From contig JAGBGA010000030.1 in the NCBI GenBank assembly GCA_017936185.1, forward strand, positions 1-13,881: 13,881 nt of DNA, given 5' to 3'. This DNA is from Alphaproteobacteria bacterium. GTDB lineage: Bacteria > Pseudomonadota > Alphaproteobacteria > Rs-D84. The notes beneath the pieces were generated by a model that saw nothing but the letters and a program-made list of their open reading frames with translations, ran no database searches and was not told the origin of the DNA. Below are positions 287 through 13,096 of this stretch, piece after piece. The translations under genes and the position numbers were made by a program. Numbering within the stretch: the stretch's first letter is position 1; each line of letters begins with the position of its first letter.

Positions 287-315
287 TTGTAAAAAGTGGT
301 GAAACATGCTAAAAT
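287..315 (+). promoter_or_regulatory. Sigma-70-like extended -10 promoter for the Cys-rich protein gene
   Basis: The -35-like TTGTAA (287-292) and -10-like TAAAAT (310-315) are separated by 17 bp. A TG dinucleotide at 307-308 makes an extended -10. Transcription would start near 322 and leave a leader of about 130 nt before the ATG at 455. Confidence 0.55.
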
Positions 316-337
316 AAAGGGCGAAAGGGGGATTTTT

Positions 338-444: not shown

Positions 445-454
445 TATAAGACAT

Positions 455-2860
455 ATGAAGACAAAATTTCTGACTTTTTTAAGTATGATTGTTGCCATTG
501 GAATTGGTGTAAATTCGGCCTGGGGTGGGACGTGTGGTGATAAAAGCGTTAGCTTTAGTCGTTTTGAAGAACCAGAGCACAGAAATTTTTTGTATTCTAA
601 TAAGTACGATTTTGATATAGCTGATTGGTGTCACCTTAATAAACAAAGTTGGTGTGTGTCAACGTTTGATTATGGTGAAGAGCCTAAGAAGATTAGTGAC
701 AATGTATATAAATGTGACACAAGTGACTGTGGAGCAGGTACATTCGTGTATATGAAGCCGAACCATTATTTTGACGATAAAAATATAAACGAAGAAGGAC
801 TTTATATTTGTGTAATTCAAGGTGGTGGGAATACAAGATGGTATCCGCATAAAGTAGAAAGATGTCCCTGTGATTTAAGTAAGTGGACGAAGATTAAAAC
901 GGTCAAAAATGCTAGCGATGATAGGGATTGGTATTATAAGATTGAAAAAGATACACGAAAAAGTTGCTATATCGACAAAACCGACAAAAAGAACTGCGGT
1001 TGTTTAGAAGGCACAAAAGGTTATAATGTTGGGGAAGATGTAGGTGTTTCTTGTTCCAGTGTGATGTATCTGAATGGAATAGAAAACGCAACAAAATGTT
1101 ATAAAGTTTGTGTTGATGGAGGGAAGTGGGAAACAAAAATAAAAGAATGTAAGGGAGGATACAGAGTTGCAGATGATGGGTTTGCTTGTGTTGAAGCGAC
1201 AAATACCCCATCGACCACCACATCCACCCCATCCACCAATAACGGTGAATGTAGCCCAGATGAACTTAATGGAAAGAATGCAAGTAAAGGAAAAAAAAGC
1301 GGTGATACGTGTATTGCAACAAAATGTAAAGATGGTGCGTATTTGGTTGTGAAAGACAATCAAAGTCAAGGTTGGTGTGTCTTTCCGACATTTTGCAAAG
1401 ATAAGCCAAATACAAAACTTAATATTATTAATAATGACAAAACGGATTTACAATGCGTGCCGATTGAACCCAGTGAACCCGCCGCCGGTGAAGAACCCGT
1501 CACCGAAGCGCCCGCCGAAGAACAGGGCGATGTGTCCACGTCTGGTGACCAAACGCCCGCCGATACATCAGCCACCGAACAAGAAGCATGTGCCAAGGTT
1601 GGACGTTGGGCGTTAGGTACTTGTGTATGTAACGATATATATAAACAATGGAATCATGACAAATTGGATTGTGAATATATACCATATATGCCACAACAAA
1701 CAAATACAGAATGTATTGATGCGGGTGGCACTTGGACCATGGATAAAAGGTGTATTTGCCCCGAAGAAAAAGAAAGAAAAGGGCAATATTGTGTTGAAAA
1801 GTCTGGCGCGCCCACCGATACACCAACCACCGGACAAGACCCATGTGCCGCCGGTGGTGGGACGCCTGGGGATGATGGCGCGTGCGATTGTGGTGATGGT
1901 AAAATGTGGGATGACACACAAAAGCAATGTGTTGGCGCGACCGATGCCGGGGGCGATGCCATCACCAGTGAAGAAGCACCGTCTGGCGAAAATACTGATG
2001 TCGAAAATAGTGACAGTCAAGATGGTGAAAGTGCGGGACAGGATGTTGCCCAAGAAACCCCGGTTGACCCGGCGGTGGAATGTTCGGAAAATGGTGGCAA
2101 ATGGGATGCGCAATCCAATCAATGCATAACGCCGGAAATGCAACGTGAAATTGACAGGCAAAAATCACAAGAAAACGTCGATAAATTAAAGGCGGATGCC
2201 GACGCCGCACGTGAACGCGAACAATCGACGGAAAACAAATTAATTGGCGCGGCGGGCATTGGCGCAACCGGTATTGGTGGCATGATGTTGGCACAAAGCG
2301 CCGCCGAAAACGCCGCCGATGACGATGCCGAACGCGCAATGCGGGCATACCTGGCCACGTTCCGATGTGATTATGGTGGGGGCAAAACCGTTCGCGGTGG
2401 TGAACAAGAAATCGAATTGCCGGGTGGAAATGAACTGATTAATCTTTACAGTGAATATATCGCATTGGCAAATGATTTAAAGGTACGCAAAGAACAATTG
2501 GGGTTAAAACCCGGGATTGAATCGGAACCGATATTGGATGGTGCAACATCGGGTCTTTATGACGATATTGCGGTTGGCAAGACGGGCGGTGCGTACACGT
2601 CACTTGCGCGTGCGTTAATGGACCCCAAGGGCGCGGATGCGGCGGCATGGGCGGCCCAACGCGCGGAAACAGCGAAAAATCTGAAAACCGGGGCAATTAC
2701 CGCGGGTGTTGGCGCCGGTGGCAGTATGATTGGTAACCTTGCAATAAATTCGGGCGAAGACAAAAAGAATAAAGCAAACGAAATCGAACGTAAATACGAC
2801 GCCAAAAAAGTATCAGGCGACACAATAAACGCAAACAAAAACACCCCCACCGAACAATAG
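455..2860 (+). CDS. Secreted or surface Cys-rich mosaic protein
   Basis: The function is unknown. The start at 455 is chosen because a signal peptide begins there: MKTK, a hydrophobic stretch to about residue 20, then NSAWGG. An upstream GTG at 296 would add 53 unlikely residues spanning the repeat-rich leader. The product is about 801 aa. Residues ~25-300 form a Cys-rich region, followed by Thr/Ser/Pro and Glu-rich linkers. Several short modules of the type C-x-GG-x-W/G...C-x-C come next (around CIDAGGTW, CAAGGGTP, CSENGGKW). Then come a charged coiled-coil stretch, a glycine-zipper hydrophobic segment (GAAGIGATGIGGMML), a domain with ATFRCDYGGG, and a second Gly-rich hydrophobic segment (TAGVGAGGSMIGNL). 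I recall similar C-terminal domains in gut Alphaproteobacteria proteins. Codon composition shifts from AT-rich before about 1450 to GC-richer after, suggesting a mosaic origin. It stops at TAG. Confidence 0.8.
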   Translation: MKTKFLTFLSMIVAIGIGVNSAWGGTCGDKSVSFSRFEEPEHRNFLYSNKYDFDIADWCHLNKQSWCVSTFDYGEEPKKISDNVYKCDTSDCGAGTFVYMKPNHYFDDKNINEEGLYICVIQGGGNTRWYPHKVERCPCDLSKWTKIKTVKNASDDRDWYYKIEKDTRKSCYIDKTDKKNCGCLEGTKGYNVGEDVGVSCSSVMYLNGIENATKCYKVCVDGGKWETKIKECKGGYRVADDGFACVEATNTPSTTTSTPSTNNGECSPDELNGKNASKGKKSGDTCIATKCKDGAYLVVKDNQSQGWCVFPTFCKDKPNTKLNIINNDKTDLQCVPIEPSEPAAGEEPVTEAPAEEQGDVSTSGDQTPADTSATEQEACAKVGRWALGTCVCNDIYKQWNHDKLDCEYIPYMPQQTNTECIDAGGTWTMDKRCICPEEKERKGQYCVEKSGAPTDTPTTGQDPCAAGGGTPGDDGACDCGDGKMWDDTQKQCVGATDAGGDAITSEEAPSGENTDVENSDSQDGESAGQDVAQETPVDPAVECSENGGKWDAQSNQCITPEMQREIDRQKSQENVDKLKADADAAREREQSTENKLIGAAGIGATGIGGMMLAQSAAENAADDDAERAMRAYLATFRCDYGGGKTVRGGEQEIELPGGNELINLYSEYIALANDLKVRKEQLGLKPGIESEPILDGATSGLYDDIAVGKTGGAYTSLARALMDPKGADAAAWAAQRAETAKNLKTGAITAGVGAGGSMIGNLAINSGEDKKNKANEIERKYDAKKVSGDTINANKNTPTEQ

Positions 2861-2912
2861 TCATGCCCCAGCACCACATATAAAAAATAAAAATTAAGAT
2901 ATTAAATCCCTG

Positions 2913-2942
2913 TTGACACGATTTCAAAAAATTTACTATGAT
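2913..2942 (+). promoter_or_regulatory. Sigma-70-like promoter of the proton-channel operon
   Basis: A perfect TTGACA (2913-2918) and TATGAT (2937-2942) are separated by 18 bp. Transcription would start near 2949, just upstream of a purine-rich ribosome binding site (AGCGAGAGA) and the ATG at 2967. This gives the motA/tolQ-like pair its own transcript, separate from the upstream Cys-rich gene. Confidence 0.7.
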
Positions 2943-2966
2943 TATATCAAAGCGAGAGATATAACC

Positions 2967-3740
2967 ATGACCAAACATTTTCATAACGCGCTTAATCTGA
3001 TGGCTTTATTCACCGCATTGCTGGTTGCGGCGGTTATGTATTTTTGGGCGGAATTCATTGAAATTTCAACCGCAAACATATGGTTAAACGGTGTAATTAT
3101 CGGCACAACAATATTTGGTATTGGCCAGTGCTTTGTCCACATGTTCCGGCTTTTACCAGAATACAAATGGTTGCATGGTTATATAAATAAAAAGCGCAAC
3201 ATCGCCCTTGCCCCCGATTTACTGCGTCCGGTTGCCCAAATACTTACATCGCGCCCAAGTCGCATTTCCGCAAACGACGTTAACGGTTTACTTGACATGA
3301 TATTAATGCGTTTTGATGACACGCGCGAATCGATAAATTATATAACCAACACATTAATCTTTTTGGGATTATTGGGAACATTCTGGGGGCTTATTTTAAC
3401 CGTTGGCGGTTTCGCCGAAATAATTGGTGGTCTTAACTTTGCGGATGAAAGTGTACTTCAAACAATGCAGGCCGGCATGACCAAACCATTGGCGGGCATG
3501 GCAACCGCGTTTACCAGTTCTTTACTTGGCCTTGGGGGCAGCTTGGCCGTTGGTTTCCTGGGGCTTCAGGTACAGATTGCCCAAAACACAATGTATCACC
3601 AATTGGAAGATTTTCTTGCCAAGCGCACAAACATAAACGCAACTCAAGAAATCGCACGTATATTGCCACAAATCAACCTGGCAACACGTGAATTAACAAG
3701 AACAATTCAAAACATCGACCAAGACGAACAAAACGTCTAG
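2967..3740 (+). CDS. MotA/TolQ/ExbB-family proton channel protein
   Basis: This is a predicted inner-membrane stator subunit that would form a proton channel with the product of the next gene. The protein is 257 aa. Membrane segments lie near residues 9-28, 38-58, 125-147 and 182-202. The last two carry the family-type signatures LGLLGTFWGLI and P174-LAGMATAFTSSLLGLG. A cytoplasmic loop (about 60-120) and a short polar tail (205-257) complete it. The ATG at 2967 is chosen over an upstream TTG because that TTG is part of the promoter -35. The next gene starts 32 bp downstream behind its own purine-rich site, as in the alphaproteobacterial 'MotA/TolQ/ExbB plus peptidoglycan-binding protein' pairs. 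There are no flagellar or tol genes nearby, so a flagellar or TolQ role is not supported; the driven process is unknown. Confidence 0.85.
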   Translation: MTKHFHNALNLMALFTALLVAAVMYFWAEFIEISTANIWLNGVIIGTTIFGIGQCFVHMFRLLPEYKWLHGYINKKRNIALAPDLLRPVAQILTSRPSRISANDVNGLLDMILMRFDDTRESINYITNTLIFLGLLGTFWGLILTVGGFAEIIGGLNFADESVLQTMQAGMTKPLAGMATAFTSSLLGLGGSLAVGFLGLQVQIAQNTMYHQLEDFLAKRTNINATQEIARILPQINLATRELTRTIQNIDQDEQNV

Positions 3741-3772
3741 CAAAAAAATATCTAACCAGAGAGAGAAACACA

Positions 3773-4885
3773 ATGTTAAAACTTCGTTATCGTAACAAAC
3801 CAAACGCATGGCCCGGATTCGTCGATTTATTTTCGAACTTGGTTATCATATTGATATTCTTGCTGATTGTGTTTGTATTTTTATGGACCACAACCAGTGT
3901 ATTTAACAAATCGACCGGCGCCCGCGCGGTTGCAGACTTGAAACAAATAAACGCAGAACAAGCGCAAACCATTGAACAAATGGTGGCCGACGAACGCGAA
4001 GCGAACTATCTTTTGACACGTGCCCGCGATGAATTATTGGGTCTTGAACAAAACAATGCCGAATTAAACAACGAATTGGTTGCGATTGACACCAGCATTG
4101 AAGACTTGGTTACCGCATACGAAAATAAAATCCAAGAATTACAGCAAGAAATGGCCGGTATGCAGGAAACGGTGGACAAACTGAACGTGCAAATTGCCCA
4201 AGTAAAATTGGACAAAGAAAAAACAGCCGAACTGGAACAAGAACGCAAAAAATTACAAGACGAAATGACCGCGCAACGCGCCGCCCTTCAAGACCAGTTG
4301 GCAAAACTTCAAGCCGCCCTTGATGCCGCCGAAGAAAAATCGCGCAAACAAGAAATTCAATACGTCGAAATGTCAACGCGCCTTAATCGTGCATTGGCCG
4401 ACAAGATTGCGGAATTAAACGACGTTGCAAAATACCAATCTGAATTTTACAAAGGCATAAAATTGGCATTGGGCGAGCGCACCACAATACATGACGACGG
4501 CGACCGCTTTATTGTAAACAGTGACATTTTATTCCCCAGTGGTTCATACAAATTATCCGCCGAAGGAAAAAAGCAATTACACTTGATTGCCAACGTCATC
4601 AAAGACATGGAAGACAAAATCCCTACAAACATAAATTGGATTATTCGTGTTGATGGCCACACAGACAACGAAATGGTAATACCGGGCACCGCCAACTATA
4701 AAAACAACACCGAACTGTCATTCTTGCGCGCGGCCGCGGTTGCACGCGAATTAACAAACGCCGGTGTTGCAAAGCGTCGCTTGGTCCCAAGTGGCTTTGG
4801 CGATATGTATCCGGTCGCATTGGGCAACGACAAGGCAAGTCTTCAGAAAAATCGCCGTATTGAATTACAATTAACAAACCCATAA
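3773..4885 (+). CDS. OmpA/MotB-like peptidoglycan-binding stator partner
   Basis: The protein is 370 aa. It has a short cytoplasmic N-terminus, then one membrane segment (about 19-40) preceded by WPGFVD, where D18 sits like the proton-carrying Asp of MotB. A long periplasmic coiled coil follows (about 50-215, rich in Q/E/K/A). The C-terminal OmpA domain (about 240-370) contains FPSGSYKL, VDGHTDN (293-299), an LS-x-x-RA helix and NRRIEL (360-365), the usual peptidoglycan-binding signature. Together with the upstream channel gene it should form a proton-driven motor anchored to the cell wall. The architecture matches the alphaproteobacterial 'peptidoglycan-binding protein' neighbours of MotA/TolQ-like genes. 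It also resembles ZorB in outline, but no Zorya effector genes are present. It stops at TAA just before a strong terminator. Confidence 0.87.
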   Translation: MLKLRYRNKPNAWPGFVDLFSNLVIILIFLLIVFVFLWTTTSVFNKSTGARAVADLKQINAEQAQTIEQMVADEREANYLLTRARDELLGLEQNNAELNNELVAIDTSIEDLVTAYENKIQELQQEMAGMQETVDKLNVQIAQVKLDKEKTAELEQERKKLQDEMTAQRAALQDQLAKLQAALDAAEEKSRKQEIQYVEMSTRLNRALADKIAELNDVAKYQSEFYKGIKLALGERTTIHDDGDRFIVNSDILFPSGSYKLSAEGKKQLHLIANVIKDMEDKIPTNINWIIRVDGHTDNEMVIPGTANYKNNTELSFLRAAAVARELTNAGVAKRRLVPSGFGDMYPVALGNDKASLQKNRRIELQLTNP

Positions 4886-4889
4886 AAAA

Positions 4890-4917
4890 GTCCCCCGCAA
4901 ACGCGGGGCTTTCTTTT
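4890..4917 (+). terminator. Rho-independent terminator after the proton-channel operon
   Basis: The stem CCCCGC (4893-4898) pairs with GCGGGG (4903-4908) around an AAAC loop. It is followed by CTTTCTTTT on the plus strand and preceded by a run of A, so it may also serve the opposite strand. It begins 5 bp after the TAA of the OmpA-like gene. Confidence 0.85.
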
Positions 4918-5058
4918 AATCAATAATTTCCATTCGAATAATTTCATCTGGGCTTTCAACCCGACCATTGTTTCGTGCACTGCCCCGCTTTATTTTATCA
5001 ACAAATTCCATACCACTTGTCACACGTCCCCAAAGTGTATAATTGCCACTTTTTAATT
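4916..5058 (-). pseudogene. 3' remnant of a cyclophilin-type peptidyl-prolyl isomerase gene
   Basis: Read on the minus strand, the last 47 or so codons give L-K-SGNYTLWGRVTSGMEFVDKIKRG and end in SPDEIIRMEIID. This matches the C-terminal end of cyclophilins (YT-x-WG-x-V-x-x-GM-x-x-VD-x-I-K-x-G ... PD-x-I). The upstream part of the same frame has no cyclophilin features: no FH-x-x-I, GGD or Q-FF core. The other minus frames contain stops. The usual domain is about 150-170 residues, so only the last quarter or so is left. I infer that an earlier insertion or deletion replaced the 5' part. The frame stays open to about 5257, but that extension looks non-homologous. Confidence 0.6.
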
Positions 5059-5086
5059 CTAACTTTCGAACTCGGTGGAAATATTT

Positions 5087-5120
5087 GAAAACAAACAAAA
5101 ACTTGCCCCGATGGGCAAGC
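5087..5120 (-). terminator. Rho-independent terminator in the scar region
   Basis: On the minus strand CTTGCCC-ATCG-GGGCAAG (stem arms 5102-5108 and 5113-5119) is followed by TTTTTGTTTGTTTT (down to 5087). This is a strong intrinsic terminator for something transcribed leftward, yet no recognisable gene lies immediately upstream of it. It sits 11 bp left of a sequence resembling the end of tRNA-Gln, so it may be the terminator of a lost tRNA copy. Confidence 0.6.
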
Positions 5121-5130
5121 TTTGAAACTA

Positions 5131-5149
5131 TGGTTGGGGCAGCTGATTC
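5131..5149 (-). other. Third tRNA-Gln 3'-end-like fragment (possible old attachment scar)
   Basis: TGGTTGGGGCAGCTGATTC differs from the first 20 bases of the intact tRNA-Gln locus (11761-11780) only by loss of one G. It lies in the same order relative to a terminator hairpin as the other two copies. The match is short, so chance or remnant coding sequence is possible. If real, it marks an earlier integration or recombination at this tRNA. Confidence 0.4.
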
Positions 5150-5272
5150 CCTCGGCATAAAAATGCCTGTGGGGCATTCGTTAGCACTTGAACTGCACTT
5201 CGTTTGTTCTCGTTTACTCATTGTCGAACCAGTGCAACAAATTGTTGCATGGTACAAACCAACGCACCACAG

Positions 5273-5303
5273 ACCAAAATTAAAACGCCCACACAGGGCG
5301 TTT
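5273..5303 (-). terminator. Terminator next to attL (ancestral tRNA-Gln terminator)
   Basis: A perfect 8-bp stem, AAACGCCC (5283-5290) with GGGCGTTT (5296-5303), has an ACACA loop. On the minus strand it is followed by TTAATTTT. It lies directly downstream of the left tRNA 3' fragment, so it was probably the original terminator of the tRNA-Gln gene before the element inserted. The plus strand has a weaker GAATTTT tail. Confidence 0.7.
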
Positions 5304-5308
5304 GAATT

Positions 5309-5354
5309 TTGGTTGGGGCAGCTGGATTCGAACCAACACTGACGGAGTCAGAGT
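5309..5354. repeat. attL: 46-bp duplicated tRNA-Gln 3' end
   Basis: It is identical over 46 bp to 11760-11805. It contains the CCA end, discriminator base, acceptor 3' strand, T arm, variable loop and the anticodon region of tRNA-Gln in minus orientation. Beyond 5354 the sequence turns to TTTTT and no longer matches the tRNA, so this copy is non-functional. It marks the left boundary of the element. Confidence 0.92.
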
Positions 5355-5460
5355 TTTTTCATAATAAAAGACCATAACCTACCATCACCACCAATAACAA
5401 GAACCACAAGGCTTCATTTGTTCTCAAATGTTATCAACAGTCACTGTTTTTATTACAGAC

Positions 5461-5477
5461 TGTCCCACCTGTGTCCC
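5461..5477 (+). promoter_or_regulatory. Putative recombinase arm site, left end
   Basis: TGTCCC-ACCTG-TGTCCC consists of two hexamers with 11-bp periodicity. The same TGTCCC-N5-TGTCCC arrangement occurs twice near the right end (11566-11582 inverted, 11671-11687 direct). Paired hexamers at one helical turn near both ends of an element suit the arm-type sites bound by the N-terminal domain of tyrosine recombinases. The binding protein is inferred. The rest of 5355-5481 holds only a small CATTTG/CAAATG hairpin and the palindrome ACAGTCACTGT. Confidence 0.5.
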
Positions 5478-5481
5478 ACCA

Positions 5482-6780
5482 TTATTCGTCTTCACTATCA
5501 CATTCTGATTTGAGTTCATCGTCTTTTTTTTCTCGCTTACTATTTGCAACATTTGAATAAACATCCGCTACAGCAGACAAGATTTTTGCAGCGTTTTCAG
5601 CCCCCCCTATACGGTTTACCCATTTTTCTGACACGTTAAGCAAGGCAATCATCGGATTGTCGCTTTTTTCGTGATTTGTTATACAGTCACTGGGGTTCTT
5701 TGCAGCAGCATCTAATGTTTGGTCTAACAATTTTACTTTTAGTTTCTGCGACATATCGTCATCACCAACGTCTGCAATTTGCTTGGCGAGTCCTGCATAA
5801 GTTTTTGCTGTTGCCTCTTTGTGAGAGTATTCTTCAATCAGTTTTTTGGATGTTTTCAAGTTTGTATTTTGGAATATGCCCAACCATATAAGTGCAGCAC
5901 AAACTGGTACCAACATAAGGGTCAAATGCGGAGCTTCATCCAATGCGACAGAGACCCCAACGGTACACATCAACACAATTGTGACAATCGTTGGAATAAT
6001 GGCAACGCATGCCAAAATGCTAATCATCCAGACAAATCTTTTGTACCCGTTGTTATAATTTTTCTCTTCTGTTTCCCGTTTGTTTTTATATGCCTCGGCT
6101 AACCCTGCAGACATCGCCCCTGGCAATAAGTTTTCAACTTGGTCTTTTAACGAATTGTATTGAACAGCCCATCCGTTAATGGTATCTGCATAATTTTTTT
6201 TGGTGTTTTTTTCTAGTTCATCCAGTTGAACAGTCAACTTATCGTATGTTTTGTCAAGCCGCTCTTTAAGCCCATCAACATGCTGAACCTCCCCTGTTTC
6301 TGAATTTTTCGTATCATATCCAAACAACGTCTGATACAGTTTGCGGATTTCGTTTTTGTCTTTTTCCGCCTGAGAATATAATGTTCCGATATTATTAACC
6401 TGTTCATTCATTGTTTCAATGTCGTCCAGGATATTAGGGTTAGCCTCAATCACTTTTTTAATTTCGTCCGCTTTGTCAGAAAGTTCTTGAATATCGTCAG
6501 TTAAAGCACGTATCGTTGCCACATCTTTCTCAGCCGATTGTGCAAATCCTGATATCGCACCAGTTTTGGAAACAATATCATTGTAAACCGTTTCATATTC
6601 TTTATATTTACCTTTCAGCTGAGCCAAACTCCTAACCAAGCTTGTAGCATTTTTTGTTTCTTCTGGAACGCTTATCTCACAGGCAGCAATTCGCTTTGAC
6701 AACTTTTCTACGTCGGTTTTCAACAGCTCCAATTCTTTCAAAACACTTTCAGAATTCGTAAAATCGTACTTTTTTTTCAT
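5482..6780 (-). CDS. Membrane-anchored coiled-coil protein of unknown function (element cargo)
   Basis: The start at 6780 (MKKKYDF, 432 aa) is preferred because AGGGG lies 9 nt upstream; an ATG 39 nt earlier has no ribosome site. Residues 10-215 are almost entirely helical and charged, with LFGYD (152-156) and HVDGLKERLDKTY (167-179) in the middle. A NLLPGAMSAGLAEAY segment (217-231) precedes two membrane segments (about 249-275 and 286-304). After them comes a cytoplasmic region with EEYSHKEATAKTY (316-328) and a Lys/Glu/Asp-rich tail. I recall LLPGA...GLA and EEY-x-HKE-x-x-A-K-x-Y from membrane proteins of unknown function in bacterial mobile and defence-rich regions, but I cannot confirm the family. 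It is transcribed toward attL, alone, and divergently from the lipoprotein/GIY-YIG pair. A sensor or abortive-infection role is speculation. Confidence 0.8.
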   Translation of the reverse strand: MKKKYDFTNSESVLKELELLKTDVEKLSKRIAACEISVPEETKNATSLVRSLAQLKGKYKEYETVYNDIVSKTGAISGFAQSAEKDVATIRALTDDIQELSDKADEIKKVIEANPNILDDIETMNEQVNNIGTLYSQAEKDKNEIRKLYQTLFGYDTKNSETGEVQHVDGLKERLDKTYDKLTVQLDELEKNTKKNYADTINGWAVQYNSLKDQVENLLPGAMSAGLAEAYKNKRETEEKNYNNGYKRFVWMISILACVAIIPTIVTIVLMCTVGVSVALDEAPHLTLMLVPVCAALIWLGIFQNTNLKTSKKLIEEYSHKEATAKTYAGLAKQIADVGDDDMSQKLKVKLLDQTLDAAAKNPSDCITNHEKSDNPMIALLNVSEKWVNRIGGAENAAKILSAVADVYSNVANSKREKKDDELKSECDSEDE

Positions 6781-6823
6781 TAATGACACCCCTAATACCA
6801 CATTGTTATCTTTTATCATTGAC

Positions 6824-6886
6824 TATCATAGACAATCACCGTCAACTTTTCCATTGTTTTTTCTACATATCTAATATATCATAGAC
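6824..6886. promoter_or_regulatory. Paired TATCATAGAC sites in the divergent intergenic region
   Basis: The 10-mer TATCATAGAC occurs at 6824-6833 and 6877-6886, 53 bp apart and on the same strand. The first lies in a near-palindrome (TTGACTAT with ATAGACAA). The second overlaps the proposed -10 of the rightward promoter. This could be an operator pair for a repressor acting on both divergent units. No regulator gene of obvious match is encoded next to it. Confidence 0.35.
6854..6882 (+). promoter_or_regulatory. Putative promoter for the structured leader and cargo genes
   Basis: TTGTTT (6854-6859) and TATCAT (6877-6882) are separated by 17 bp. Transcription would begin near 6889, about 6 nt before the first helix of the folded leader (6895). 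That close fit supports the leader being made as RNA. The AT-rich context makes chance matches likely. Confidence 0.45.
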
Positions 6887-6894
6887 GTGTATCC

Positions 6895-7056
6895 GCAAAG
6901 GATGCCGAAGAGTTGAAAACTTCGTTGCGTAGGGTGCAGGGATTGCACCAAAAAATAATCCCCGCAAGTGCGGGGAGCTGTGGCACATAAGGCAAGTCCG
7001 AAAACCACAGGTCATTCTACGCAATGATTTTTCAACCTCCCCGCGCCATCTTTTGC
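6895..7056 (+). ncRNA. Cloverleaf-like structured leader RNA (or folded DNA origin)
   Basis: No coding frame explains this stretch, which folds as nested helices. The outer helix pairs GCAAAGGATG (6895-6904) with CATCTTTTGC (7047-7056), with one G-U. The next pairs GTTGAAAA (6912-6919) with TTTTCAAC (7029-7036). The third pairs 6922-6932 with 7017-7027 (11 bp, one G-U, core TTGCGTAG/CTACGCAA). Inside are three hairpins: GGTGCA/TGCACC (6933-6949), CCCCGC-AAGT-GCGGGG (6960-6975), and CTGTGG/CCACAG (6978-7010) with a 21-nt loop. The downstream lipoprotein ATG is at 7079. It could be a cis-acting leader, a small RNA, or a single- or double-strand origin for the element's HUH Rep. It matches no RNA family I can recall. 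Confidence 0.6.
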
Positions 7057-7078
7057 ACAACAATAGGTGGCTTTTTTT
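7045..7078 (+). terminator. Terminator-like hairpin overlapping the leader helix and Shine-Dalgarno
   Basis: GCCATC (7045-7050) pairs with GGTGGC (7066-7071, one G-U), and seven T follow immediately (7072-7078). The 5' arm overlaps the 3' strand of the leader's outer helix (7047-7056), so the two structures exclude each other. The 3' arm contains AGGTGG, the likely Shine-Dalgarno of the ATG at 7079. The arrangement resembles a terminator/antiterminator or an RBS-sequestering switch. The 15-nt loop and modest stem make it weaker than the other terminators here. Confidence 0.45.
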
Positions 7079-7681
7079 ATGAAAAAACTCTTAATATCAT
7101 GCTTCATATTGCCTGCGCTGGTTGCATGTCATGGCAACAAACAGCCTCTTACCAAATACTTCAAACCATATAAACACTGTTTATACGATGAACACAACGG
7201 TATAACCACCTGTGAAAGCCTGGAAATCAGTCATGGACTTGTATTTGAGTGCAAGCATACACAACCCGACAATAATTTAACCTGCACCAGCACAACACTG
7301 TTTGATTTCAATGACCTTAATAAACTGCCGATTTACTATAATGAATTTGAATTCAAAATAGATTCCAAGCCAAAGTCTAAATCACAGAACATAACACTTA
7401 TCGTCAACATACACACAGACTTAGAAACGCCATTGACAGCAAATAAAGTCAACGACAAAAACCAACGGTCTTTCAAATTTAACATCGTATCAGACAATTG
7501 TTATGACACATACTGTGACGAAAAAATCAATATATTCTTAGACAGAGAATACATATCAAAAAACATTGAAAACGGTATTTCATTAAAAATATACGGCAAA
7601 AACAACCAGTCATCAATATTGCACGTTGAACCACAACACATTGCAGATTTTGACAAATTCTTAACAAGTAAGGGATTATAG
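7079..7681 (+). CDS. Predicted lipoprotein of unknown function (element cargo)
   Basis: The protein is 200 aa from the ATG at 7079, preceded by AGGTGG at 8 nt. A GTG at 7067 lies inside the terminator-like hairpin and is less likely. The N-terminus MKKLLISCFILPALVAC is a lipoprotein signal with lipobox L14-V-A-C17. The residue after the Cys is His and not Asp, which under the enterobacterial Lol rule would send it to the outer membrane. The mature part is polar, with four Cys in C-x(n)-C pairs (CLYDEHNGITTC, CYDTYC) and predicted beta-rich stretches. I recognise no family. It ends one base before the next ATG, so it is co-transcribed and probably translationally coupled with the GIY-YIG gene. 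Confidence 0.75.
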   Translation: MKKLLISCFILPALVACHGNKQPLTKYFKPYKHCLYDEHNGITTCESLEISHGLVFECKHTQPDNNLTCTSTTLFDFNDLNKLPIYYNEFEFKIDSKPKSKSQNITLIVNIHTDLETPLTANKVNDKNQRSFKFNIVSDNCYDTYCDEKINIFLDREYISKNIENGISLKIYGKNNQSSILHVEPQHIADFDKFLTSKGL

Positions 7682-7682
7682 T

Positions 7683-8342
7683 ATGACACGTGGTATCATA
7701 TACATAATGTGGAATGAATTGTTTCCCGAACTGGTGAAAATAGGTATAACCAGTGGAAGCACGCCATCAGACGTAGAAAGGCGCAGGAAAGAGCTGTCCT
7801 GTGGTGAAAATATGCCACAACCATTTGAAGCAAAATTTGCCATTTGTGTGAACAACTACCAAAAAATTGAACAAATCATCCACAAAGGACTTGCAAAACT
7901 ACGCCATAACCCACATCGTGAATTCTTCAAACTAAGCGTTGACGAAGCCATCAATCTACTTTCTGGATACATCATAAGTGGTAGCGCAGTTGAAGTACCA
8001 ATAAAAAACTCTTTCAACCAAGAAGAAAAAAAGGCAATACAAACACTACAAAAACAACGTGCCAATATCACTTTCAGGTCTTTGGGAATACCCGTTGGCA
8101 CAACATTAACTTTCGCTTCTGCACCGCACATAAAAGTCAAAACAAAGAATGATTCACGTATTGTAATTTTACCAAACAACAAACACACAACACTGTCACA
8201 AGCAGCACGCACATTTCGCAATCAGACAAATCCTAAGAACAACATAAAAGGTTTGCCAGATGGGGCGAAAGACTTCTTGTACAACGGAAAAACCTTGTGG
8301 GAACTATTCTTGGAAAAACAACGTGCGGTCATAGAAGCATAA
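7683..8342 (+). CDS. GIY-YIG (T5orf172-type) nuclease with RAMA-like C-terminal domain
   Basis: Residues 1-100 fit the T5orf172/MUG113 branch of the GIY-YIG nucleases. GIIYIM (4-9) stands for GIY and VKIGIT (18-23) for YIG. The conserved Arg is in VERRRKEL (31-38), then P-x-PFEA, an IE-x-x-IH segment (62-67) and REFF (79-82) with the putative metal-binding Glu80. Residues about 120-219 look like a RAMA-type module (V-x-x-x-D-x-RIV, T-LS-x-AA, FLYNGKTLWEL), often fused to restriction or DNA-modification proteins. That second assignment is from pattern memory and less certain. The predicted role is a DNA endonuclease, possibly sensing modified DNA. AAGGGA lies upstream, and the gene starts 1 bp after the lipoprotein stop. 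It converges with the KGG gene with 3 bp between the stops. Confidence 0.8.
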   Translation: MTRGIIYIMWNELFPELVKIGITSGSTPSDVERRRKELSCGENMPQPFEAKFAICVNNYQKIEQIIHKGLAKLRHNPHREFFKLSVDEAINLLSGYIISGSAVEVPIKNSFNQEEKKAIQTLQKQRANITFRSLGIPVGTTLTFASAPHIKVKTKNDSRIVILPNNKHTTLSQAARTFRNQTNPKNNIKGLPDGAKDFLYNGKTLWELFLEKQRAVIEA

Positions 8343-8345
8343 ACT

Positions 8346-8687
8346 TTATAATCCTAAATATAATTTCAAGGGATTGTCCACAGATTCACACGACTTATTC
8401 TGGTCTGTTAAATGCAAAACTTTTTCCATTGCACGCAAGTCGCCAGATAACGCTTTCTTAAACAAAACCACCGCCATCACATCTTGATTTGTTATATTTG
8501 AGATGTCTGGAAACTCTCTTTCAATGTCTTTCACATCCATTGCTGGTGACTCAACAATCAACTGCAATGTTTTGGCGAAATGTTTCTGCTGCCTACGTGA
8601 CTCGCCACTCGCGATTCCACCTTTCCGCCCCAATTCTCTTGCTTCACTCTCGCTTCGTATTTTGTGTAAATTTTGTTCATTCGCCAT
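8346..8687 (-). CDS. Small 'KGG'-motif protein of a mobile element
   Basis: The protein is 113 aa with GGAGG 7 nt before the ATG. The N-terminal third has the stretch SEARELGRKGGIASGESRR (about residues 13-31), a basic motif seen in short proteins of phages and conjugative elements. The rest is helical, ending in VLFKKALSGDLRAMEKVLHL, which resembles small-terminase-like or DUF families in such elements. I cannot name the function; DNA binding is plausible. It follows the Rep gene by 12 bp and is co-transcribed with it. Confidence 0.7.
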   Translation of the reverse strand: MANEQNLHKIRSESEARELGRKGGIASGESRRQQKHFAKTLQLIVESPAMDVKDIEREFPDISNITNQDVMAVVLFKKALSGDLRAMEKVLHLTDQNKSCESVDNPLKLYLGL

Positions 8688-8699
8688 TTTTAGCCTCCA

Positions 8700-9236
8700 T
8701 TAGCAAAACATATCACAGTCAAGGATAAAGTTATCATTTAGCCTTGTGTCACTCACCCCCAATTCCTTGGAAAAATACTCGTCAACCCTTGGTGAATACA
8801 CAGATTTTACCATTATGTCTGCCCCAAATTGTTTTGAAGTCGTCAATTTATCTTCTTCACTCGTCCAAACATCCATTTTTAGTTGATAAGACAAACTTTT
8901 TAACACATCCATGACTTCAGCCACCTGAAACTTGCTTATAATCCCCAAAAGAAAATGCGCATGCCTATTATTATATTTTCCAAACTCTTGCACACCCACC
9001 AATATAAAATACCGTTTGTGCACCTTATTCCAATGCCTCCCCAACAGTTTTCTAAACAGTATACAAAATATCGGCTTACAACTCTGACATAACTCAATCT
9101 TGTTTTCTGGTGGAACGCGAAATCGTACAGACACGAACAAAACACCATTTGACTCCAAACCAATCTTATTCAACCAATTTACAATCTCATATCTTGCAAC
9201 CATATCTCTTACCAATTCTTTTCCAACTGCACACAT
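8700..9236 (-). CDS. Small HUH rolling-circle replication initiator-like protein
   Basis: The ordered motifs of single-Tyr HUH endonucleases are visible in 178 aa: motif 1 VLFVSVRF (32-39), motif 2 E84 and RHAHFLL (91-97) with metal ligands H92 and H94, and motif 3 Y154-FSK157-EL (YxxK). This suits a replication initiator that nicks the element's origin, working with host polymerase and helicase. No helicase domain is fused, and it is shorter than most plasmid Reps. A relaxase is possible but less likely without mobilisation partners. The start is uncertain: the ATG at 9236 lacks a clear ribosome site, and an internal ATG at 9203 has weak AAGAG. It is followed by the KGG gene after 12 bp. The 101 bp upstream (9237-9337) are AT-rich, with no feature I can name. 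Confidence 0.7.
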   Translation of the reverse strand: MCAVGKELVRDMVARYEIVNWLNKIGLESNGVLFVSVRFRVPPENKIELCQSCKPIFCILFRKLLGRHWNKVHKRYFILVGVQEFGKYNNRHAHFLLGIISKFQVAEVMDVLKSLSYQLKMDVWTSEEDKLTTSKQFGADIMVKSVYSPRVDEYFSKELGVSDTRLNDNFILDCDMFC

Positions 9237-9337
9237 TTTTGTGGGCAGTGAATATTAAGATTTAACTTTAAGGTGATAAATAGCCAAAAAACAGCACAGT
9301 ACCAGCGCATAAAGCAATAAAATTCAGACCAATAACA

Positions 9338-9547
9338 TTACAGTCCGTTTTGAGTTTGTATCCAGTTATAGAACTTATTTGTGTCAATAAAAACCTTGCG
9401 CCCAATACGAACAACTGAACCACTAGATTTCATGCCATTGATAGTTTCAAGATTGATAAGCTTCCGCATTCCACCATAAGTAAAGGCAGGATTTTCGGCA
9501 ACAAACTGTTTTACAGTCTTCAAAGACACACACGCATTTTCTACCAT
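9338..9547 (-). CDS. AlpA/excisionase-like helix-turn-helix protein
   Basis: The protein is 69 aa. It has the form of short DNA-binding excisionase/AlpA relatives: QFVAENPAFTYGGMRKLI (a recognition-type helical segment, about 14-31), SGSVVRIGRKVFIDTNKFYNWI (42-63), the beta-wing and final helix. An ideal AAGGAG lies 6 nt before the ATG. It sits between the Rep gene and the integrase pair, the usual place for a protein that bends att DNA for excision or activates integrase and Rep expression. No strong terminator separates it from either neighbour; the 95 bp upstream (9548-9642) carry an AT-rich small hairpin near 9637-9653 and a GCATGCATGC palindrome (9615-9624). Confidence 0.72.
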   Translation of the reverse strand: MVENACVSLKTVKQFVAENPAFTYGGMRKLINLETINGMKSSGSVVRIGRKVFIDTNKFYNWIQTQNGL

Positions 9548-9642
9548 AATTTACTCCTTGTTATTCTGCTGTGATACCACGAATATAATATACTTTGACA
9601 AGGAGATAAAGACGGCATGCATGCATCCCGTACTAATAAGTT

Positions 9643-10356
9643 TTACTTATCTAGCACTTCCTTTTTGAAACGATTATATAGTTGTATCGCCCGTTCTTTT
9701 CCTAAGAATTTTGTTGTACCATCAGGATATTCTAACGTGCATTTATCTAATATGGCTGCGATTATATCCCGTCTGGTAGGCTTTTTACCTGGTGTAGCAG
9801 GATTAACAAGTAATGCTGTACCATGTTTTTCATATTCTTCCTTAAAAAACTGGAACGCCGCCCCCATTACTAATTCGTCTTGTTCCCATCTACGTTTGGA
9901 AGCATCGGATGCATTTTTATGAATCGCACGTTTATAAATATCTTTTGCACGATTTTTTAACTCATCTGGTTGAGCATCTGGAAGATATTCTTTGTTAATC
10001 AGGTATTGAACCGCCTGATATGCCGTGTCCAAAAATCTGTTGCGTTGCTTCTTAGCATATTCTGTACCCCACATCTGACGGTCAACCAACACCAACATCT
10101 GTTGCAGTAGCATAAAATCTATACCATACTCAAAATCTGTGTGCGATTTAATAAAATCAAATAATTCATCTTCATCCGACAAATCAAAGGCTTCCATCAT
10201 ATGATGCAGCAATATCTGAACCTGAAAAACAACATCCTCATTTTCCCCTCTAGGCTTATTTTGTAAATCCTGTCCCAAAACCCGCTGCAAACAACTTTTA
10301 TCAAACGCCCAGTTATTGTACACAATTTTACCCAAATCAGATTCAAGCTTTGACAT
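9643..10356 (-). CDS. Unknown 237-aa element protein overlapping the integrase gene
   Basis: I do not recognise the family. The start at 10356 (MSKLESD) is chosen because AAGGTGA precedes it; an in-frame GTG 9 nt earlier is possible. The first 14 nt overlap the end of the integrase gene, so the two are translationally coupled. The protein is mostly helical: an acidic half (DEDELFDFIKSH, about 60-71), a central MLLQQMLVLVDRQMW segment, a basic KNRAKDIYKRAIHKNASDASKRRW stretch, and a C-terminal KPTRRDIIAAILDKC...FLGKERAIQLYNRFKKE that could contact DNA. There is no signal peptide or membrane segment. Its fixed position after int suggests a recombination or replication accessory role; this is inferred from context only. 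Confidence 0.75.
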   Translation of the reverse strand: MSKLESDLGKIVYNNWAFDKSCLQRVLGQDLQNKPRGENEDVVFQVQILLHHMMEAFDLSDEDELFDFIKSHTDFEYGIDFMLLQQMLVLVDRQMWGTEYAKKQRNRFLDTAYQAVQYLINKEYLPDAQPDELKNRAKDIYKRAIHKNASDASKRRWEQDELVMGAAFQFFKEEYEKHGTALLVNPATPGKKPTRRDIIAAILDKCTLEYPDGTTKFLGKERAIQLYNRFKKEVLDK

Positions 10357-11422
10357 CACCGTCACCTTTTGTTGTAAAGTATATTTTTGCCGTATCCTCC
10401 ATTACAGAACGTTTATATCCAGGCGACAGATGCGCATAACGTTTTGTAATTTTTAAGTCTTTGTGTCCCAAAATTTCTGCAATAATTGCCATATTTACAT
10501 TAGTCATCGCCAAATAAGATGCGCAAGTGTGTCGCAAATCATGAAATCTAAAATTTTCTATCCCTGCAGTCCTGATTATATCTTTCCAACAATACGTAAT
10601 ATCCAGCGCACCAGACCCATCATGACTCGGAAAAACATAAGGACTTTTTCCGCGCTTAGCATACAACTTTTTTAATTCCTCCAGCGCAGGCTCTATCAAC
10701 TGCAACACCCTATATTCACCATTTTTAGTCTCCCACAAAATTGCAGTATTAGCATTAAAGTCAATATCCTCCCAGCGCAAGCGCAGAATTTCCATCTTGC
10801 GTGCCCCAGTAGTCAATGCAACCAAAACAATCGCGTAAATATAAGGATTTGTAGAATTTCGTGCAGATTCAAGCAAGTTTTCGCGCTCTTCATCTGACAA
10901 ATATCTCACGCGTGGTTTAGGCTCTTGTAAATGTGATATTTTACTAATTGGGTTATCATCTATCCATTCAAGCTCTTTGACCGCATAAGAAAAAACAACC
11001 GACAATGCCGCCATATATCTATTAACCGTTGAACAAGACTTCTTCTTACCCCTGGTTTCCATATTTTGTATCTTTTCACGAGCATCCAAAATCATTTTTG
11101 TGTTGATGTTTATTAGCGCATACTTACCCACCAGCTGTCGCCAAACTTCCAAATGCCTCTTGGTATCAACTGCACCATTCCCCTTGTATGGCAACACCTT
11201 GTTAACATACAAATCAATCAACTCTTCAACAGTGCGCTTTTTTGCCTCACGCACAATCAAGCGCATACCACCCCTTATATCAGATTGAGTTTTATCTGCC
11301 CATTCTTTGGCAAGTGTCTTTGTAGTAAAAGTTTCAGAAATTTCAGGATACCCCTTTAACCGAACCTTTACACGATATGACACCTTTCCATTTTTTGACT
11401 CGCGTTTTTCAATAGTTGCCAT
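10343..11422 (-). CDS. Tyrosine recombinase (phage-type integrase)
   Basis: The protein is 359 aa. It has an N-terminal arm-binding type domain (1-55; KRESKNGKVSYRVKVRLKG), a SAM-like core-binding domain (about 63-165) and a catalytic domain (about 175-345). The active-site set is complete: R208 in TTGARKMEILRLRW, K233 in the beta-hairpin, H294 and R297 in HDLRHTCASYLA, H320 in LGHKDL, and nucleophile Y329 in KRYAHL. It should catalyse integration and excision at tRNA-Gln using the 46-bp repeats. AAGGA lies 9 nt upstream of the ATG. It ends in TGA, the only TGA stop among the genes here; if UGA were read through, five more codons would follow before TAA. It lies next to the intact tRNA, the typical orientation. 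Confidence 0.95.
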   Translation of the reverse strand: MATIEKRESKNGKVSYRVKVRLKGYPEISETFTTKTLAKEWADKTQSDIRGGMRLIVREAKKRTVEELIDLYVNKVLPYKGNGAVDTKRHLEVWRQLVGKYALININTKMILDAREKIQNMETRGKKKSCSTVNRYMAALSVVFSYAVKELEWIDDNPISKISHLQEPKPRVRYLSDEERENLLESARNSTNPYIYAIVLVALTTGARKMEILRLRWEDIDFNANTAILWETKNGEYRVLQLIEPALEELKKLYAKRGKSPYVFPSHDGSGALDITYCWKDIIRTAGIENFRFHDLRHTCASYLAMTNVNMAIIAEILGHKDLKITKRYAHLSPGYKRSVMEDTAKIYFTTKGDGDVKA

Positions 11423-11460
11423 TTTTGTATTCCTTAGAACAAATCATAACCGTTTATGCA

Positions 11461-11489
11461 ACTGTACAACCCCACAGCCACAACGTCAA
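11461..11489 (-). promoter_or_regulatory. Putative integrase promoter
   Basis: On the minus strand TTGACG (11484-11489) and TACAGT (11461-11466) are separated by 17 bp. This is 40 bp upstream of the integrase ATG at 11422. The -35 overlaps the nested palindrome at 11486-11515, so it could be repressed from there. Confidence 0.5.
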
Positions 11490-11515
11490 CAAGATTCAGA
11501 ATCTGACAATGTTGA
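11486..11515. promoter_or_regulatory. Nested palindrome, likely operator of the integrase operon
   Basis: The outer arms TCAACA (11486-11491) and TGTTGA (11510-11515) enclose a perfect inner palindrome AGATTC-A-GAATCT (11492-11504). It overlaps the proposed -35. Two concentric dyads point to a dimeric regulator or a recombination accessory protein such as the AlpA-like product. Confidence 0.45.
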
Positions 11516-11565
11516 TTAACAAAACCCCAGAAAACCGCCAACACACCCACAAAAACCCACCACAT

Positions 11566-11582
11566 GGGACAATTACGGGACA
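11566..11582 (-). promoter_or_regulatory. Putative recombinase arm site, right end (inverted)
   Basis: GGGACA-ATTAC-GGGACA is TGTCCC-N5-TGTCCC read on the minus strand, with the same 11-bp repeat period as the left-end site. It lies between the integrase gene and attR. The rest of 11423-11760 carries the integrase promoter region, a further arm site and a terminator; I see no gene there. Confidence 0.5.
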
Positions 11583-11670
11583 ATAACTACCAAAAAGAAC
11601 AAAAATTTTACCATTTTGCAATCTATCATCCCTGAAATGATTCTATTTGATTATGATTCGTTATACCGTG

Positions 11671-11687
11671 TGTCCCGTCAGTGTCCC
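11671..11687 (+). promoter_or_regulatory. Putative recombinase arm site, right end (direct)
   Basis: TGTCCC-GTCAG-TGTCCC is the third copy of the paired hexamer, in the same orientation as the left-end copy and about 73 bp from the attR repeat. Spacing and placement suit a site for the integrase's N-terminal domain or an accessory factor. Confidence 0.5.
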
Positions 11688-11722
11688 AAAAACAAAATAA
11701 ACACCCTGCCAAACGACAGGGT
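11688..11722 (-). terminator. Terminator downstream of the intact tRNA-Gln
   Basis: On the minus strand ACCCTG-N8-CAGGGT (arms 11717-11722 and 11703-11708) is followed by TGTTTATTTTGTTTTT. It is element-borne and replaces the chromosomal terminator displaced to 5273-5303, so the restored tRNA still has a transcription end. Confidence 0.65.
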
Positions 11723-11759
11723 TTAACTTTACAATCAGCAGATATTACTGACAAAATTC

Positions 11760-11805
11760 TTGGTTGGGGCAGCTGGATTCGAACCAACACTGACGGAGTC
11801 AGAGT
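11760..11805. repeat. attR: 46-bp tRNA-Gln 3' half at the intact gene
   Basis: It is identical to 5309-5354. It forms the 3' part of the complete tRNA, from CCA through the T arm to the anticodon loop. The match ends at 11805; further right the tRNA 5' half is chromosomal. The crossover must lie within these 46 bp, probably near the anticodon or T arm as in other tRNA-targeting recombinases. Confidence 0.92.
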
Positions 11806-11834
11806 CCGGAGTTCTACCATTAAACTATGCCCCA
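11761..11834 (-). tRNA. tRNA-Gln (anticodon CUG)
   Basis: Read on the minus strand it folds fully. The acceptor TGGGGCA pairs with TGCCCCA. There is a D arm with AATGGTAG, an anticodon arm CCGGA-CTCTGAC-TCCGT (loop anticodon CTG, closing pair weak), and a T arm GTTGG-TTCGAAT-CCAGC. The discriminator is A and CCA is encoded. The size, 74 nt with CCA, is normal. The gene is the integration target of the element, and its 3' half is supplied by the element after integration. Confidence 0.95.
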
Positions 11835-11984
11835 ATGCGCCCCGGATTATAAGGCTTTTATTTTCACAACGCAAGCAGAAAGTTTTTTCCATGTAAAAAT
11901 TCCCACGCAATGGTTCCTATGGAACCGGCCCCCAAAAATACAAATAATTTATATTGGATAAATAACAAAAAGGGGGAAATACAC

Positions 11985-13070
11985 ATGACACAGGTAAAAA
12001 TACTTGGTGCATTGGTTGCGTGTCTTGCAATAGTTTCGCGCGCCGACGCATGCACTGGAATCACCCTAAAGTCCAACGATGGCGCAACAATTGTTGCACG
12101 CACAATGGATTGGTCGGGTGCCGAAATGAACAACATGTACACAATTGTTCCACGTGGCCATGAACAACAATCTTTATTACCCGATGGTTCGACAAATGGT
12201 TTGAAATACACATCATTATACGGGTATGTTGGCCTGGCGGTCCAACAACCTGAATTTGTCGTCGACGGCACAAACGAAGCCGGCCTTTCAGCCGCCCTGT
12301 TTTACTTTCCAAACTATGGTGAATATATTGAATACAACGAAGCATCCAAAGACATAACCCTTGCCGACTTTCAAGTCGTATCATGAATATTATCACGCTT
12401 TTCCACAATTGACCAAGTCAAAGAAGCCATTAACAACGTCCGCATTGTTAACATAGACCCCAGCGCATCAACCGTCCACTGGCGCATAACGGAACCGAAT
12501 GGTCGTCAAGTTGTAATGGAAATTGTAAATGGCGCCCCCAACTTTTATGAAAACGAAGTTGGCGTATTAACAAATTCACCTGGATTTGAATGGCAACTGA
12601 CGAATTTAAACAATTATTTCAATTTGCATCCTGGCACTGCGGGTCCAACACCATTTGGCCCAATAAGATTACGTGCATTTGGGGCGGGTTCTGGATTTCT
12701 TGGGTTACCGGGTGACTTTACCCCACCATCACGTTTTGTTCGTGCGGCATTTTTTTCAACATATTCAATTCCCCAAAACACCGCATACAAAGCAATCGAA
12801 CAATCATTTCATATTTTGAACAATTTTGATGTTCCATTGGGCATTCAATTTGCGATTGGTTCAGCCCCGAACAACATGCCATCTGCGACACAATGGACGG
12901 TTGCGACCGACCTGAAAAACATGAAGATATATTATCACACGATGTACAATCGTCTTATTCGTCGCATTGACATGACAGATATTGACTTTACATCTGTACC
13001 GTTTCAACATCATTCACTTGACATCGGAACACAACAAACAATAATTCCGGTCAAGATAGACACAAAATAA
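11985..13070 (+). CDS. Choloylglycine hydrolase/penicillin V acylase family protein with in-frame TGA
   Basis: The product is an exported Ntn-hydrolase that would cleave linear amides, such as conjugated bile salts or N-acyl amides. The ATG at 11985 follows AGGGGG and starts a signal peptide (MTQVKIL...SRADA) ending at Cys23, which is exposed as the catalytic N-terminal nucleophile (CTGITL). Family residues are visible in both parts: ARTMDW, VVDGTNEAGLS, VLTNSPGFEWQLTNLNNY and SRFVRAAFF. One frame runs from 11985 to the TAA at 13068-13070 (361 codons, normal length), broken only by TGA at 12384-12386. The context is VVS-[TGA]-ILSRFSTIDQVKEA, where relatives have W (SW-x-L-x-x-F-x-T-x-x-E/QVK). 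It is either a recent TGG-to-TGA nonsense mutation, a sequence error, or UGA read as Trp. If translation stops there, a 133-aa truncated product results; a separate frame is open from 12516. Confidence 0.82.
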
Positions 13071-13076
13071 CAACAA

Positions 13077-13095
13077 TCGGGGCATTACGCCCCGA
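13077..13095. terminator. Bidirectional terminator between convergent genes
   Basis: CGGGGC-ATTAC-GCCCCG (13078-13083 with 13089-13094, plus a T-A pair) is followed by AATTATTT on the plus strand. On the minus strand it is followed by ATTGTTGTTATTTT. It lies 6 bp after the hydrolase stop and just before the stop of the opposing LRR gene. Confidence 0.8.
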
Positions 13096-13096
13096 A

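Follow-up and report, generated by a model that had tools for sequence, protein, structure and literature searches.

The antisense RNA C4 is processed to a short RNA by RNase P, and sRNA-Xcc1 is reportedly called trans-acting in the title of a 2011 paper. C4 is described in a review as binding the ant mRNA around the ribosome binding site and so blocking translation (PMC12197685). For IsrK, silent and active alternative structures have been described, with a terminated short form that acts in trans (PMC4825925). sRNA-Xcc1 was reported as a separate 88-nt RNA mapped by RACE (PMC2996969), and a 2025 study locates it in integron cassettes, ahead of symE, with the suggestion that its mode of regulation is divergent (PMC12444791). 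A Xylella study predicts trans targets for sRNA-Xcc1 homologues, and one of its tables has C4, isrK and an sRNA-Xcc1 copy together for a single genome (PMC12189769). Both c4 antisense RNA and c4-a1b1 are listed by Weinberg 2010 (PMC2864571). In the portions of the open-licence literature that were consulted, no account joining sRNA-Xcc1 with a C4-like circuit was found.

The window is a stretch of 13,881 nucleotides (contig JAGBGA010000030.1 of assembly GCA_017936185.1, positions 1-13,881, forward strand) from Alphaproteobacteria bacterium (Rs-D84). It contains a leader whose transcript is predicted to start near 6889 (Table 1). Folding of positions 6895-7078 gave -73.1 kcal/mol, against -48.3 kcal/mol (sd 4.3) in 200 shuffled sequences (z -5.77, no shuffle as good), with three closed hairpins, P3, P4 and S2, nested within long-range helices. 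The original prediction of a cloverleaf with three closed hairpins, set between a promoter-like sequence and the ATG, was borne out by this fold and the sequence, as was its hairpin followed by seven T with the Shine-Dalgarno (SD) in the 3' arm. The outermost helix that it proposed is present and does overlap an arm of the seven-T hairpin; its 3' strand had been placed at 7047-7056, one base off the position found, 7048-7057. These bases are shared in part with the 5' arm of the switch hairpin (7045-7051). Inverted repeats of about 25 nt lie at the ends of the leader sequence. A generic scan of the + strand reported neither the leader promoter nor the T7 terminator, because the promoter has a poor -35 and the loop on the 7-bp stem, at 13 nt, exceeds the scanner's limit of 8.

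Table 1. Window coordinates of the leader parts and of the two genes behind the leader.
Feature	Position	Strand	Pairing or context	Basis
-35, poor, TTGTTT	6854-6859	+		sequence
-10-like box, TATCAT	6878-6883	+		sequence; missed by generic promoter scan
P0 5' hairpin, GTATCC/GGATGC	6889-6905	+	6889-6894 with 6900-6905	fold and permutation tests
Long-range (outermost) helix, 5' strand	6895-6904	+	partner 7048-7057; rival of SD hairpin	fold and permutation tests
P1 hairpin	6906-6924	+	6906-6910/6920-6924	covariation
a1, GTTGAAAA	6912-6919	+	in P1 loop	covariation
b1, TTGCGTAG	6925-6932	+	partner b' 7017-7024	covariation
P3 hairpin, GGTGC/GCACC	6933-6949	+	6933-6937/6945-6949	covariation alignment
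P4 hairpin, CCCCGC/GCGGGG	6960-6975	+	6960-6965/6970-6975; rival of S1 for 6970-6975	alignment and fold
S1, 5' strand	6970-6977	+	partner 7037-7044; closes sRNA-Xcc1-like 3' domain	covariation; same stem in RF02221
S2 hairpin	6978-7010	+	6978-6983/7005-7010; AUANAA motif site in family, degenerate in window	covariation
b', CTACGCAA	7017-7024	+		covariation, duplex tests
a', TTTTCAAC	7029-7036	+	partner a1	covariation
S1, 3' strand, CTCCCCGC	7037-7044	+		covariation
Switch (SD) hairpin	7045-7071	+	7045-7051 with 7065-7071	permutation tests and fold
Shine-Dalgarno, AGGTGG	7065-7070	+	inside 3' arm of switch hairpin	sequence
Seven-T run	7072-7078	+	behind switch hairpin; terminator-like	sequence
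ATG of lipoprotein-like ORF	7079	+		sequence
Lipoprotein-like ORF, 200 aa, no Pfam match	7079-7681	+	first gene after leader	
GIY-YIG-type protein (T5orf172/MUG113)	7683-8342	+	next gene, likely same operon	

Folds were computed without pseudoknots, and the energy of the long-range state with the SD side kept single-stranded. The whole leader (6889-7084) folded at -77.2 kcal/mol, with pairing probabilities of 0.996 for the SD hairpin and 0.993 for P0. The form with the outermost helix reached -72.9 kcal/mol and was 4.3 kcal/mol less stable than this off state; the cloverleaf with the outermost helix is therefore a minor state at predicted equilibrium, and the finished window leader is predicted to be off. 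P4 and S1 have a common strand, P1 overlaps a1-a', and P0, the long-range helix and the SD or terminator hairpin have common strands, so that three linked choices are built into the leader. In the window's own predicted fold, P4 beats S1. When the transcript was folded as it grows, P0 and P1 appeared earliest, b1-b' by 7030 and a1-a' by 7044; the long-range helix was predicted at a 3' end of 7057, and P0 together with the SD hairpin from 7071 onward.

When the 156 genomes of the genus were searched at the DNA level, matches were listed in 25 of them, including the window's own. Eleven further leaders matched over at least 167 of 206 nt and were 70-88% identical; the other matches in the genus covered only 25-52 nt, mainly the P4 hairpin. 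The 12 leaders (window and 11 others) align from the -10-like box through to the start codon, and standard pairs are kept in 12/12 at all five positions of P1 and at the first five of b1-b', with compensated changes. A covariance model, R1, was built on these 12 leaders; its E-values are rough owing to a short calibration. R1 matched 132 of the 156 genus genomes at E ≤ 0.01 (91/103 of those of good quality), 166 of 201 genomes of the order, some of which belong to the window's genus, and 8 of 240 genomes of the class, three of the eight being from the window's genus and the window's genome among them. Four genomes were searched closely and gave 8 (the window's own), 12, 17 and 13 matches; among the eight are the opposite strand of the window leader, at E 0.005, and another match with E 0.009. 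A pattern of the S2 motif was found in 66 named stretches; by title, 39 are Alphaproteobacteria, 4 are Rickettsiales and many come from ruminant gut. R1 was present in 5 of the 27 stretches not titled Alphaproteobacteria (four Rickettsiales and one 'proteobacterium') and in none of the 5 viral stretches scanned. No DNA similarity to the window was found in phage records, and plasmid records gave three short matches (E 0.05-0.6).

Seventy-three R1 matches were aligned (alignment A5) as group 1, 21 rows of at least 107 bits that include the window, and group 2, 52 rows of at most 74 bits. Pairs were counted at 39 positions, including a1-a' and S1, both absent from R1. Overall, 92.0% of cells were paired, compared with 70.4% after shuffling, both sides had changed in 33 of the 39 pairs, and covariation was 0.535, compared with 0.171 when shuffled (0/500) and at most 0.103 in slid controls. 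P1 was 89.4% paired with 5/5 pairs changed on both sides. The main b1-b' helix was 98% paired with 7/7 pairs changed on both sides, an eighth, outlying pair being paired in 67.6%. The two helices outside R1 gave 93.1% for a1-a' (5/7 pairs changed on both sides) and 93.5% for S1 (4/8); S2, the other 3'-domain stem in the count, was 84.1% paired, and its AUANAA motif is conserved in 60/73 leaders. Judged from this alignment, the leader structure is conserved, and the compensatory stem changes for which homologous leaders were to be checked are abundant.

Pairing of each leader with itself was compared by permutation with pairing between leaders, using 20 of 21 group-1 and 43 of 52 group-2 loci; relatedness inflates such tests. 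L045 (group 1), with its ORF about 100 nt off, was excluded from the SD test. On average, the 3' arm preferred its own 5' segment, giving the long-range helix, with z 4.4 in group 1 and 6.4 in group 2, and its own SD or terminator side with z 5.0 and 6.5; 0/2000 permutations were as good in either test. With near-duplicates removed, the long-range and SD values were z 3.5 and 3.8 in group 1 (n = 11) and 6.7 and 6.4 in group 2 (n = 41). At less than 80% identity (n = 11), the observed long-range and SD values of group 1 were reached by 1 and 2 of 5000 permutations; at less than 70% (n = 5) the tests weaken, with 220, 87 and 1394 of 5000 for long-range, SD and P0. For P0, locus specificity was clear in group 2 (z 8.7), but in group 1 without redundant leaders it fell short of significance (<80% identity, z 1.8, 152/5000). 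These locus-specific competing pairings, with the compensatory changes, support the proposal that mutually exclusive structures are placed to control the downstream gene.

A T-rich tract follows the RNA in 45/51 group-2 loci (control 8/49) and in 3/21 group-1 loci (control 1/21), the window's T7 being such a tract. As the tract is common in group 2 and rare in group 1, control in group 2 appears to act through a terminator and in group 1 at the ribosome site. The window leader carries both outputs, a ribosome-site hairpin and a terminator-like T tract. Boxes resembling a -10 stand at a fairly constant place upstream of the related leaders, with mean best scores of 5.74 in group 1 (control 4.48; 21 and 21 loci) and 5.52 in group 2 (control 3.82; 51 and 49 loci).

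A same-strand ORF starts within 130 nt of the leader in 67/73 loci, mostly at 38-50 nt in group 2; the search covered the same strand only, hence provides no control on polarity, and 6/52 group-2 rows were without an ORF of 60 aa in range. The genes behind the leaders differ: a lipoprotein-like ORF and a GIY-YIG gene in the window, GIY-YIG alone in L003, a DUF4268 protein in L008, and others. In L005, by eye, the leader precedes a secreted protein beside a terminase-like gene. No direct homologues of the window's lipoprotein-like ORF were found in a search of genome contigs. By a home-made hydrophobicity rule, used in place of SignalP, a signal-peptide-like N-terminus was counted in 33/46 downstream ORFs of group 2 and 13/21 of group 1, compared with 32/157 other ORFs of at least 120 aa in the same loci. 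Seven downstream proteins from both groups were scanned and include EcoRI-type and N6 methyltransferases, a glycosyltransferase, LicD and Stealth proteins, a sulfatase and a DUF4268 protein; no pathway shared among these seven was found.

A perfect 46-nt direct repeat (5309-5354 and 11760-11805) lies at a tRNA-Gln gene (11761-11834, minus), and its copies are the attachment sites of an integrative element of 6.45 kb, which encodes a tyrosine integrase (10343-11422, minus). The ORF at 8700-9236 (minus) matches REP_ORF2-G2P below threshold (E 0.063) and is possibly the element's rolling-circle initiator. The predicted setting as cargo of a mobile element holds for the window leader, which lies in this element, but not for the family: the leaders are not limited to the window's mobile element, and related genomes carry many copies before different genes. 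An ORF piece at 4916-5257 (minus), peptidyl-prolyl isomerase-like by eye, ends near the left attachment site. Also by eye, the ORFs at 11910-12386 and 12516-13070 look like the two parts of a single linear-amide hydrolase-like gene that may be frameshifted.

No Rfam family matches the window leader on its own strand. Run over the full window at E ≤ 1, cmscan gave nothing on the leader, and a scan of 6800-7150 at E ≤ 10 gave only two weak matches, both on the opposite strand, with no match of the sRNA-Xcc1 family, RF02221, to the leader. The RF02221 gathering cut-off of 53 bits was not reached by the window or by any relative scanned. Below it, RF02221 was found in 8/18 relatives' loci at E ≤ 1 (best 45.3 bits) and in 11/21 genomes of the order at E ≤ 0.001 (0/21 above cut-off, best 46.7 bits), the alignments in relatives landing on the 3' half of the element. 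The matches were in group-2 relatives and none was obtained for the group-1 loci scanned (L066, L067 and the window); the window's link therefore runs through group 2. Conversely, R1 matched 5 of the 8 order loci that have an RF02221 match (L099-L106) and, weakly, 2 of 20 sRNA-Xcc1 loci from the phylum (E 0.04 and 0.06). Across the phylum, RF02221 was present in 58/398 genomes, 39 above cut-off. The C4 family, RF01695, had no match in the window (E ≤ 1) or in its genome (E ≤ 0.001).

The 20 sRNA-Xcc1 loci (L107-L126) were read and have a 5' domain made up of b1 and a hairpin whose loop holds a1; most of them have another a/b copy close to where the next gene begins. Three of these next genes were scanned and gave Bro-N, Bro-N and P22_AR_N (phage antirepressor-type). 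A perfect receptor complement of at least 6 nt lay on both sides in 15/19 sRNA-Xcc1 loci, a length that is not rare by chance, and the weight rests on permutation tests of duplex energy. These covered 19/20 sRNA-Xcc1 loci (L118 was left out, its match being offset by the contig end), 10/10 C4 loci, 21 loci of group 1 and 45/52 rows of group 2 (six were without an ORF and one without a'). Own compared with permuted duplexes gave upstream and downstream z of 8.5 and 5.5 for sRNA-Xcc1, 7.1 and 6.1 for C4, 9.8 and -1.0 for group 1, and 21.3 and a weak 2.1 for group 2. With strong pairing upstream and z -1.0 downstream, the window branch therefore keeps the upstream half of the circuit without the downstream half. 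Against the start region, a' gave a weak signal in group 2 (3/2000 permutations) and the reverse in group 1 (1994/2000), and b' gave none in either group. In the window, only TGAAAAA (7 nt, in the start codon region) matches a'. Besides the leader and its complement, an exact search, with no mismatches allowed, turned up no a-b copy in the window's 786-kb genome (71% complete).

The original view that no known class has this shape is not supported, in that form, by these comparisons. On the alignments, the leader family is not an isolated new class, because the 3' half of its relatives matches sRNA-Xcc1, below cut-off, and the layout a1/b1 - [a'/b'] - a2/b2 is found in sRNA-Xcc1 and C4 loci; the layout is that of phage C4 and IsrK. 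Some further features of the sRNA-Xcc1 and C4 loci were noted. In many of the 5' domains of L107-L136, by eye, a hairpin and T run lie between a1/b1 and the sRNA-Xcc1 or C4 domain, and in some sRNA-Xcc1 loci the loop of this hairpin is complementary to the S1 5' strand. A CRISPR array (L121, 24-1193, CRISPR-DR4 repeats) adjoins one sRNA-Xcc1 copy, and another sRNA-Xcc1-bearing locus has a sub-threshold c4-2 match (L116, 2890-2958, minus, 34.8 bits; cut-off 41).

The leader is probably a default-off, cis-acting two-state mRNA attenuator that works by strand exchange during transcription and belongs to a widespread RNA family of gut Alphaproteobacteria, with an ancestry in common with sRNA-Xcc1-type RNAs and a C4/IsrK layout. 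Conserved structure, competing pairings and two types of output are established at the level of sequence comparison; the order of events and the default-off state are drawn from the modelled folds. During transcription, the local 5' hairpins P0 and P1 would form earliest. Next, b1 would take b', and a1 would take a' and thereby open P1. The emerging 3' arm would briefly invade P0 and give the long-range helix. Once the SD or terminator side emerges, the 3' arm would pair with it, P0 would re-form and the gene would be off. In this state the ribosome site would be hidden, and in the window a U7 terminator would act in addition. Anything that holds the long-range helix or blocks the last exchange would turn the gene on.

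A true riboswitch, in which the 5' and 3' domains form a small-molecule pocket that stabilises one state, would also account for the joining of a single conserved domain to two output types, for many copies per genome ahead of unrelated genes and for the AUANAA motif kept in the S2 part. It is nonetheless unlikely: conservation outside the motif is largely helical, the motif itself is degenerate in the window, the seven scanned proteins are without a common pathway, and C4 and IsrK, with the same layout, are described as acting through base pairing. A second rival is a trans-acting, C4-like antisense RNA whose a'/b' silence another mRNA, the downstream gene being incidental. The receptors of C4 and sRNA-Xcc1 do pair with a downstream target, the published accounts have sRNA-Xcc1 as a separate RNA and IsrK as trans-acting, and a terminator-like tract ends many group-2 leaders. 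Such a role is quite improbable here, given that the receptor does not pair with the stretch downstream of it in group 1 and pairs with it only weakly in group 2, and given the single exact a-b copy in the incomplete window genome and the locus-specific SD hairpin.

Two further readings were rejected. A DNA element, such as a transposon end or an origin of replication or packaging, whose symmetry merely resembles an RNA leader, would fit the inverted repeats at the leader ends and the location in an integrative element, one of whose ORFs is weakly Rep-like; the promoter-like box upstream, the pairing with a Shine-Dalgarno or terminator arm and the compensatory change in the helices make it very improbable. 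The hairpin and T7 ahead of the ATG might by themselves be an ordinary intrinsic terminator amid chance structure, a reading with next to no probability, being contradicted by the fold z of -5.8 and by covariation over 73 loci.

The family adds to small-genome gut bacteria a large set of leaders, without an Rfam match at the window, that often precede genes for exported proteins. sRNA-Xcc1 would gain a candidate local job, with a1/b1 as decoy upstream and a2/b2 as target at the start of the next gene. If these readings are correct, one RNA architecture serves both antisense immunity and a cis switch, and a way in which a new switch class can arise is seen. It is conceivable, if somewhat doubtful, that a C4/sRNA-Xcc1-type antisense module of phage immunity was turned into a general riboswitch-like leader in which an anti-SD or terminator arm took the place of the target copy, with at least a dozen private, non-cross-pairing copies per genome of about 1 Mb that answer one common signal and serve exported proteins.

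Riboswitches with terminator or SD-sequestering platforms likewise join one conserved domain to either output, and the leader family appears to combine a conserved domain with mutually exclusive output structures in the same manner; the window, however, matches no Rfam riboswitch class. IsrK-orf45-anrP of prophage Gifsy-1 is described as a leader that folds into either a silent or an active structure and whose transcript contains a terminator. Its short form is reported to act in trans on the long transcript, whereas no such target was found for the window, and there is no Rfam match between them. C4 (RF01695, phages P1/P7 and relatives) has the same order of parts, first a hairpin whose loop holds a1, next b1, and last a domain in which b' occupies a loop and a' is left single-stranded, and upstream a1/b1 are complementary to a'/b' in the window family too. 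The window differs from C4 in its S2, in having no a2/b2 around the Shine-Dalgarno and in its output, an anti-SD or terminator arm. From sRNA-Xcc1, most of whose loci have an a2/b2 copy near the downstream gene start, the window group differs in being without that copy. The sRNA-Xcc1 loci also have a 5' a1/b1 domain, as the leader family does; their S2 carries an AUACAA motif where that of the leader family has AUANAA, and the relatives share with them the S1 stem that closes S2 and S3, with b' in the S3 loop and a' between S3 and S1.
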